Below, piece by piece: positions 59,171 to 60,661 of a stretch of 64,000 nt of DNA. Within the stretch, counting starts at the first letter, position 1. Each line of letters begins with the position of its first letter. The stretch is from Litoribacter populi (GTDB lineage Bacteria > Bacteroidota > Bacteroidia > Cytophagales > Cyclobacteriaceae): contig NZ_VMKN01000001.1 of assembly GCF_007483685.1 (NCBI RefSeq), forward strand, positions 1,786,393-1,850,392, given 5' to 3'. The notes beneath the pieces were generated by a model, which was not told the origin of the DNA, made no database searches, and worked only from the letters and a program-made list of their open reading frames with translations. The translations under genes were made by a program, and so were the position numbers.

Positions 59171-60031
59171 TTATATTACCATTTTTTCAATCGGTACTAC
59201 CAAAATTCCCTGTGCACCGGCATCCTTCAATTCCTCAATTACTTCCCAGAATTGATCCTCCGGAATCACGGAGTGAACTGATGACCAACCCTCTTCGGCC
59301 AAGGGCAGAATGGTTGGGCTTTTCATTCCAGGTATCAAACTCGTAATCTTTTCTAGGGCACCATTCGGGGCATTGAGGAGCACATATCGGTTGCTTTTAC
59401 CCGTTTGCACAGCATTGATACGGAAAAGTAATTTGTCAATAATTGCCTGTTTTTCGCCGTTCAGTCCCTTGTGGCTGATCAACACGGCTTCGGAGTTGAA
59501 GATTTTCTCCACTTCCTTTAGACCATTCATCATCAGGGTAGAACCCGAGCTTACAATATCACAAATTCCTTCAGCCAAACCAATACTCGGAGCAATTTCT
59601 ACCGAACCGGATATTTCATGGATTTCTGCCTGAATGTTGTTTTCAGCAAGGTAGTTTTCCAAAATACGGGGGTAGGAAGTTGCTATGTTTTTTCCGTTGA
59701 AATATTCCAGACCGGAATACTCTTGGCCTTTTGGGATTGCAAGGGAAAGGCGACACTTTGAAAATCCCAACTTATGAAGGGTTACAACTTCTTTGTTTTT
59801 TTCAACCAGTTCATTCTCTCCCACAATTCCAATATCGGCTACCCCGTCGGCTACATAGCCAGGAATATCGTCATCACGCAGGAACAAAAACTCGATGGGG
59901 AAATTGGAGGAAGGGGACTTAAGCTTCCCTCCGCCATTGTAAAATTTGATCCCACATTCTTTTAGCAAGGCTAGGGAATCTTCACTTAATCTACCGCTTT
60001 TCTGAACGGCAATACGGATAATATTTTCCAT
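59171..60031 (-). CDS. hisG: ATP phosphoribosyltransferase, long form
   Basis: First committed enzyme of histidine synthesis, condensing ATP with PRPP. The 286-residue length and a C-terminal ACT-like domain (YVLLNAPNGALEKITSLIPGMKSPTILPLAEEGW) mark the long, histidine-feedback-inhibited form, which needs no HisZ. Seen: IAVQKSGRLSEDSLALLKECG, DDIPGYVADGVADIGIVGENELVE, EGICDIVSSGSTLMMNGL (PRPP loop). ATG at 60031 is chosen, as the extended frame to 60097 adds unrelated residues. About 115 nt upstream lies a His-rich leader reading frame, so expression is probably attenuated as well as feedback-controlled. Confidence 0.97.
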   Translation of the reverse strand: MENIIRIAVQKSGRLSEDSLALLKECGIKFYNGGGKLKSPSSNFPIEFLFLRDDDIPGYVADGVADIGIVGENELVEKNKEVVTLHKLGFSKCRLSLAIPKGQEYSGLEYFNGKNIATSYPRILENYLAENNIQAEIHEISGSVEIAPSIGLAEGICDIVSSGSTLMMNGLKEVEKIFNSEAVLISHKGLNGEKQAIIDKLLFRINAVQTGKSNRYVLLNAPNGALEKITSLIPGMKSPTILPLAEEGWSSVHSVIPEDQFWEVIEELKDAGAQGILVVPIEKMVI

Positions 60032-60147
60032 GATGGATTGGATAAGTTCAATTGTGAAATTGGAGATGGTGGTCTTTCTGAAAAGACACAGGGACAAAAG
60101 CTTAGCTTAAGCCCACAATGGGGGCGATATGTAAATAATATTCCTCT
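60032..60147 (-). promoter_or_regulatory. Putative his attenuator region between leader peptide and hisG
   Basis: Hairpins in transcript order: ATTCCTCT / AGAGGAAT around the leader stop (60140-60158); GCCC / GGGC (60111-60125); GCTTA / TAAGC followed by TTTT (60096-60112); GTCTTT / AAAGAC (60072-60087). The second and third share bases and cannot form together, as expected of antiterminator and terminator. The terminator-like stem is short (5 bp), so the mechanism is inferred, not certain. Confidence 0.5.
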
Positions 60148-60231
60148 TTAAGAGGAATGATGGAAATGATGAACAGAGGCAGACGCCACTGAAAAAGTGC
60201 AAGTATAGATATGTTGCTTAGGGTTGTTCAT
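60148..60231 (-). CDS. hisL: Putative his operon leader peptide (HisL), 27 residues
   Basis: A short reading frame not found by ordinary gene calling. It starts ATG AAC AAC, encodes 27 residues and contains five histidines; four of the last seven residues are His, as CAT CAT TTC CAT CAT (60157-60171), two codons before TAA. Stalled ribosomes at scarce His-tRNA would sit on the following hairpin, the classical leader-peptide logic. The promoter -7 box ends 6 nt before the ATG, so this is the first thing translated from the his transcript. What it is not: no signal peptide, no domain. Conservation in relatives would be decisive. Confidence 0.7.
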   Translation of the reverse strand: MNNPKQHIYTCTFSVASASVHHFHHSS

Positions 60232-60237
60232 CTGGAC

Positions 60238-60267
60238 CAAAATTAAGTAGCTTATTTGGATTTACAA
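60238..60267 (-). promoter_or_regulatory. Promoter of the hisL-hisGDCB transcript
   Basis: On the minus strand TTG (60265-60267), a 19-bp spacer, then TAATTTTG (60238-60245), an exact match to TTG-N19-TAnnTTTG. The leader ATG begins 6 nt further, implying an mRNA with almost no untranslated 5' end. Confidence 0.72.
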
Positions 60268-60661
60268 AACTTTTTAAAGCTTACTCTTCAATAATGTATT
60301 CAAAGCTATATTGTTTTGAAATGTAGACCGATATTTTGGGGATATGTGCCCTGTTTTTATTTAAAAATAAATTGAAATTATCAAAGTGAGGATTTAGAAC
60401 CCTTTTTGGAGGTCCCAAGAAGATCTCATTTTGCACTCACAAACCGATTTTTGTACTGTCAGTAAGGTGACTAAATTATGGTTTTCTAATTTTTAAAAAA
60501 AAAACCGATTAAATATAAATATTACCGCTCATACCTTAAAATAAGTTGAAAAATAACTATTCTAAGATTAAATATATTTATTTCAATTTTTAAGGATCTG
60601 TAATTGTACAAAATACAAAATGTTGTAAATAGTTGATTAGGAAAATGTAAAATGTTAAAAT
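60268..60661. other. AT-rich intergenic spacer between the his and sus promoters
   Basis: No credible gene or RNA recognised. It contains several poly-A/T tracts and two copies of a CCGATT word (near 60450 and 60507). Confidence 0.5.

Follow-up and report, generated by a model that had tools for sequence, protein, structure and literature searches.

A probable histidine-sensing leader peptide upstream of hisGDCB in Litoribacter populi, in a clade without a strong intrinsic terminator ahead of hisG

The window, a 64,000 nt stretch of Litoribacter populi DNA, carries a hisGDCB operon on its minus strand, and all four genes matched NCBIfam models above their cut-offs: hisG (59171..60031; TIGR00070), the first gene, followed by hisD (59163-57868; TIGR00069), hisC (57871-56807; TIGR01141) and hisB (56810-55716; NF003937). 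The hisG gene is 94% identical to that of L. ruber. On the same strand, 116 nt upstream of hisG, lies a 27-codon ORF (60231-60148), MNNPKQHIYTCTFSVASASVHHFHHSS-stop, which reads just as it had been given in a preliminary description of this DNA. It specifies five His residues, four of them within the motif HHFHH, encoded by CAT CAT TTC CAT CAT (60157..60171, minus strand). This run had been placed immediately before the stop codon, which is slightly inaccurate, as two Ser codons (TCC TCT) separate the last CAT from TAA and the peptide ends HHFHHSS-stop. The HHxHHSS-type DNA motif occurs only once in the genome. The locus was compared with a close-relative set of 92 distinct hisG upstream regions, taken from whole genomes and named contigs, and with 100 more hisG loci, 58 from a sample of the rest of the class and 42 from the family group. 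Only 64 of 148 class genomes had a hisG match, so the leader frequencies given below are shares of hisG loci and not of genomes.

An ATG-initiated ORF with 3–6 His among its last 12 codons is present in all 92 close-relative loci, mostly ending in HHFHHSS or HHxHHSS, and an open frame of 20–34 codons, most often 27, has been kept. Under a stricter definition (an ATG ORF no more than 300 nt from hisG, with 4 or more His in a stretch of 9 residues), such an ORF was found in 83/92 close relatives, compared with 1/92 on the antisense strand and 0.2% of dinucleotide shuffles, a control in which the relatedness among sequences was left in; for 3 His within 9 residues, the shuffle frequency for this set was 5%. 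The earlier judgement that the His density is beyond chance is borne out by these figures, as is the expectation that the hisG upstream regions of relatives would carry a His-rich leader ORF in which the control codons alone are strongly constrained. Among the 67 leaders of exactly 27 codons, pN/pS was 0.07 over codons 21-27 (HHxHHSS), where third positions accounted for 307 changes and the other two for 50 and 40, and 0.73 over codons 2-20, where changes were evenly spread over the three positions. A hairpin, P1, described below, accounts for some of the constraint on the Ser codon pair. Strong amino-acid constraint that is limited to HHxHHSS is the signature of a leader peptide on which ribosomes stall, unlike that of a functional peptide.

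The leader ATG is situated 6 nt downstream of a perfect Bacteroidota promoter (60238..60268, minus strand), consisting of TTTG (60268-60265), a 19-nt spacer and TAATTTTG (60245-60238). The same promoter had been proposed previously, with TTG at 60267-60265, and it reaches the top possible score (10/10). An exact TAnnTTTG upstream of the leader ATG is found in 91 of the 92 homologous loci, 6–10 nt from the ATG in 90 of them, and in 6% of shuffles. This box has been reported at -12 to -5 in F. psychrophilum, so the transcript would be expected to begin only a few bases ahead of the leader ATG. The locus displays what is looked for in a leader-peptide regulator of an amino-acid operon: an upstream ORF rich in codons for the product, selection on those control codons and a promoter box upstream. 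Judged on these sequence features, the ORF very probably encodes a histidine-sensing leader peptide ahead of hisGDCB.

Another promoter-like box, TAnnTTGY, is found exactly 4 nt upstream of the hisG ATG in 52/92 relatives (0.13% of shuffles), that is at -12 to -5 from the ATG (for example, at L010, L040 and L105), and is absent from Litoribacter. Its form and position match the alternative-sigma motif SM5 of F. psychrophilum, and its presence in these relatives predicts a leaderless hisG mRNA transcribed from a second promoter. The conserved block upstream of hisG was also considered as a regulon-wide site, and this was rejected because its extended form occurs at most once per genome; in all three family genomes that have the extended form, it lies just upstream of hisG.

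Downstream of the His codons, the RNA is predicted to fold into several hairpins, all encoded on the minus strand. The most conserved structure, which the preliminary description had not reported, is P1 (60140..60158; -7.9 kcal/mol), ATTCCTCT-TAA-AGAGGAAT, with the leader stop codon held in its loop; across the clade this codon sits inside the loop or close to it. It is predicted at -4 kcal/mol or below in 81/92 loci of the clade versus 21 of 45 loci with terminators, and is thus not exclusive to the clade of the window. The two arms of a locus pair more stably with each other than with arms taken from different loci (mean -5.7 vs -3.1 kcal/mol; permutation p 0.0002, with relatedness left in). 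Next comes a U-rich and then C-rich, G-poor stretch (ATTATTTACATATCGCCCC; 60121..60139), within which ATATCGCCC is conserved. In a position profile of 91 loci, the frequency of T is 0.42-0.73 at +3 to +7 after P1, G stays at or below 10% for 14 nt, and the sequence then becomes C-rich. C exceeds G on the 3' side of P1 in 92/92 loci (ratio 1.74, versus 0.99 upstream of the promoter), and at the window's own leader the bias is unusual without being extreme, as 5% of window segments of equal size reach it. As a sign of Rho action, this bias is only suggestive.

Closer to hisG are two mutually exclusive hairpins, P2 (GCCC...GGGC; 60111..60125; -4.8 kcal/mol) and P3 (GGGC..AAGC...GCTT..GTCC; 60092..60114; -8.0 kcal/mol), which overlap in a common GGGC at 60114-60111, and of which P3 is preferred in alignment folds. 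Alternative hairpins sharing bases had been described here and they do exist, but the accompanying terminator (60112-60096) fared less well: it is a 5-bp stem (GCTTA/TAAGC) with TTTT, at only -1.8 kcal/mol, that is not conserved. P3 occupies the position of a GGCTGT...ACAGCC helix seen in relatives, which has changes on both sides, and a combined P1 and P3 structure pairs in 95% of the cells of an alignment of relatives. A fourth hairpin, P4 (GTCTTT-TCAG-AAAGAC; 60072..60087), is present in two Litoribacter genomes. No conserved pairing between P1 and P2/P3 was found in the alignments and folds of the clade, and the idea that the 3' arm of P1 pairs with downstream RNA was dropped, as no such pairing is conserved in the alignments. 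In Algoriphagus loci (L017, L040, L064 and others), the apical stretch of P3, GATGACAGGGATTCGGC, about 60-80 nt upstream of hisG, is conserved more strongly than a plain hairpin loop would need.

The G+C-rich hairpin and U-tract of a classical attenuator set the clade apart from the wider class. A strong U-tract terminator (-10 kcal/mol or below) lies upstream of hisG in 44/58 class loci and in no shuffles, but in none of the 92 loci of the window's close clade (0/92). Accordingly, of the original reading as leader plus attenuator, the His leader peptide is strongly supported, and the classical attenuator proposed with it is unsupported in the window. P1 itself was considered as a plain intrinsic terminator and rejected: a loose hairpin and U-run test was positive at just 17/92 loci at -6 kcal/mol and 8/92 at -8 kcal/mol, some of the matches lie outside P1, and the U-run is not universal.

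His-rich leader ORFs (at least 4 His in 9 residues) extend well beyond the close relatives, with 42/58 loci carrying one in the sample of the remaining class and 30/42 in the family group, while all shuffles gave 0-0.7%. Elsewhere in the class the leaders have little in common except their His runs, which are often plain HHHH. With a leader at 42/58 and a terminator at 44/58 class loci, classical his attenuation looks widespread in Bacteroidota. In 16 of 45 terminator loci, the leader-stop region is complementary to the 5' arm of the terminator beyond the 5% level, so that a part of the terminator-bearing class loci show the classical antiterminator arrangement; the clearest examples have the stop codon inside the antiterminator, as at L114 (GGTGAGCC against GGCTTGCC). 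One locus from another family of the class, L116, has the same TTCCTCC...GGAGGAA hairpin and ACATATC as the window's clade and no strong terminator, so the terminator-less form extends beyond a single family. One other family of the class (L162-L165) likewise has His leaders that lack a strong terminator, and in some of these the last codons form a hairpin near the stop (e.g., ATCGCC...GGCGAT); the terminator-less form may have arisen a second time in this family.

We propose the following scheme. Transcription would start a few bases upstream of the leader ATG, and a ribosome would translate the leader of 27 codons. A shortage of charged tRNA-His would slow this ribosome at HHFHH, and with ample histidine it would reach the stop codon and depart. 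The position of the ribosome may then set whether P1 forms, along with the fate of the RNA downstream (P2 or P3, and the U-rich then C-rich, G-poor stretch). In this way the leader would determine how much expression reaches hisG, and histidine starvation would be expected to turn the operon on. The codon constraint leads to the histidine-sensing step, and the output step does not follow from it. A transcriptional output is probable in the window's clade, and is favoured because the wider class uses terminators. As the U-tract terminator is absent in the clade, the most likely such output would be a non-canonical premature stop, by pausing or weak termination of RNA polymerase at P1 or P3, or by Rho acting on the C-rich RNA left exposed by the departing ribosome. 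P1 by itself would poorly separate the starved and fed states, being covered by a ribosome on the stop codon just as by one stalled at the later His codons. A more specific model for the Cyclobacteriaceae can be put forward only tentatively: a His leader lacking a strong intrinsic terminator, in which pausing or Rho-dependent termination within the C-rich, G-poor RNA would depend on where the ribosome stands on the HHxHHSS-stop hairpin, together with, in many species, a second promoter of the alternative-sigma type, whose leaderless hisG mRNA would escape this control.

The same leader could instead have a translational output, the position of the ribosome opening or closing translation of hisG rather than affecting transcription. 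The lack of a strong terminator in the clade would suit such a mechanism, as would the conserved block adjoining the hisG start codon in 52/92 relatives and, in the Algoriphagus group, a leader TTCCAT that is able to pair with the hisG start, ATGGAA. However, this pairing lacks covariation and is expected anyway, as CAT is the complement of ATG. Occlusion of the hisG start through pairing with the His codons of the leader was rejected on these grounds, and because it is confined to one group. In addition, the larger group has no conserved structure over the hisG start, and the wider class uses terminators, which leaves a translational output rather unlikely, though the strongest of the alternatives. 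It is far less probable that the leader is a relic that lost its terminator and no longer regulates in the clade. Such decay would agree with the missing strong terminator and with the promoter-like box that 52/92 relatives have at the start of hisG, which could bypass the leader, but the control codons, the promoter and P1 are all still clearly constrained.

Still more doubtful is that the product of the ORF is a functional His-rich peptide, such as one that binds metal, and not a ribosome sensor. That a frame of 20-34 codons, mostly 27, has stayed open could be read in that way, but the residues ahead of the His run are near neutral (pN/pS 0.73), with strong constraint only next to the stop, the peptides of the class share little but their His runs, the ORF always lies ahead of hisG, and in most of the class a terminator follows it. 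A chance His-rich ORF is refuted by its occurrence in 92/92 relatives, compared with shuffle frequencies of 5% for 3 His in 9 residues and 0.2% for 4.

The genome of the window also carries putative leaders at two other amino-acid operons, identified by reading the sequence, one at trpE (...QYWWHHH...) and one at ilvD (...LFGLFIFIIL...); behind each of them lies a hairpin with a U-run. Upstream of trpE (L211; G000:C1, near 3087066) is a putative Trp leader, MFLNQTQYWWHHHLLSKEGDRHAIPNSI, and then AAGGGCTTGCTGG...CCAGTAAGCCCTTTTTTG. Upstream of ilvD (L213; G000:C2, near 127280) is a putative branched-chain leader, MMFKIVMSNVKTQMMSLVKSLFGLFIFIILYFNSR, with a GTGCC...GGCAC hairpin and a long T run downstream. 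A sensing leader peptide at hisGDCB, in a clade without his terminators and in a genome with terminators at its trp and ilv leaders, would amount to a natural experiment in leader-peptide action without a terminator. The predicted near-leaderless start of the ORF would also make it a place to study the coupling of transcription to translation in bacteria where Shine-Dalgarno sites are mostly missing. More generally, regulation by His leaders is seemingly common in Bacteroidota, a phylum in which the control of amino-acid operons has been little studied; no Rfam family matched the leader.

Among known systems, one of the nearest in kind is the enterobacterial his attenuator (hisL; Rfam His_leader), in which a leader peptide with His codons likewise precedes hisG and the position of the ribosome is the signal. 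The hisL peptide has a run of seven His, whereas four split His (HHxHH) are found here, and the present clade differs further in having no strong U-tract terminator and in having a hairpin over the leader stop codon. The tna operon of E. coli, where a ribosome stalled near the end of the leader (tnaC) controls the access of Rho, provides a model for one possible output, Rho control being hypothetical here; tnaC differs in that its signal is free tryptophan, sensed by way of the nascent peptide, and its effect is to induce catabolism. No Rfam family, His_leader included, matched the leader at gathering score, and three weak matches were at chance level. The Bacteroid-trp RNA (RF01692, PMC2864571) is also a predicted cis-regulatory RNA of Bacteroidetes, but belongs to another operon, and the putative trp leader of this genome has no Rfam match. 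In Firmicutes, His leaders (PMC9413887), including those of hisS/hisZ (PMC2965389), were likewise recognized by comparative genomics as short ORFs with His codons ahead of his-related genes, in a different phylum and with terminator and antiterminator hairpins. A survey from 2021 that covers the his genes of the superphylum (PMC8305728) makes no mention of leader peptides, and in the open-access literature we found neither a systematic account of his leaders in Bacteroidota nor any account of the terminator-less form. The preliminary description, in calling such attenuation little described in this phylum, was nearly right: one transcriptome study of F. psychrophilum from 2021 (PMC9723704) provides clues, its main text giving indications of leader-peptide attenuation at amino-acid operons of Flavobacteriaceae and a structured 5' element upstream of hisG that is absent from Rfam. 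That element shares both phylum and gene with the leader described here, and the terminator-less form does not figure in the main text of that study. The leader of the window would thus appear to be a regulator of a known kind, with the terminator-less form as its new part.
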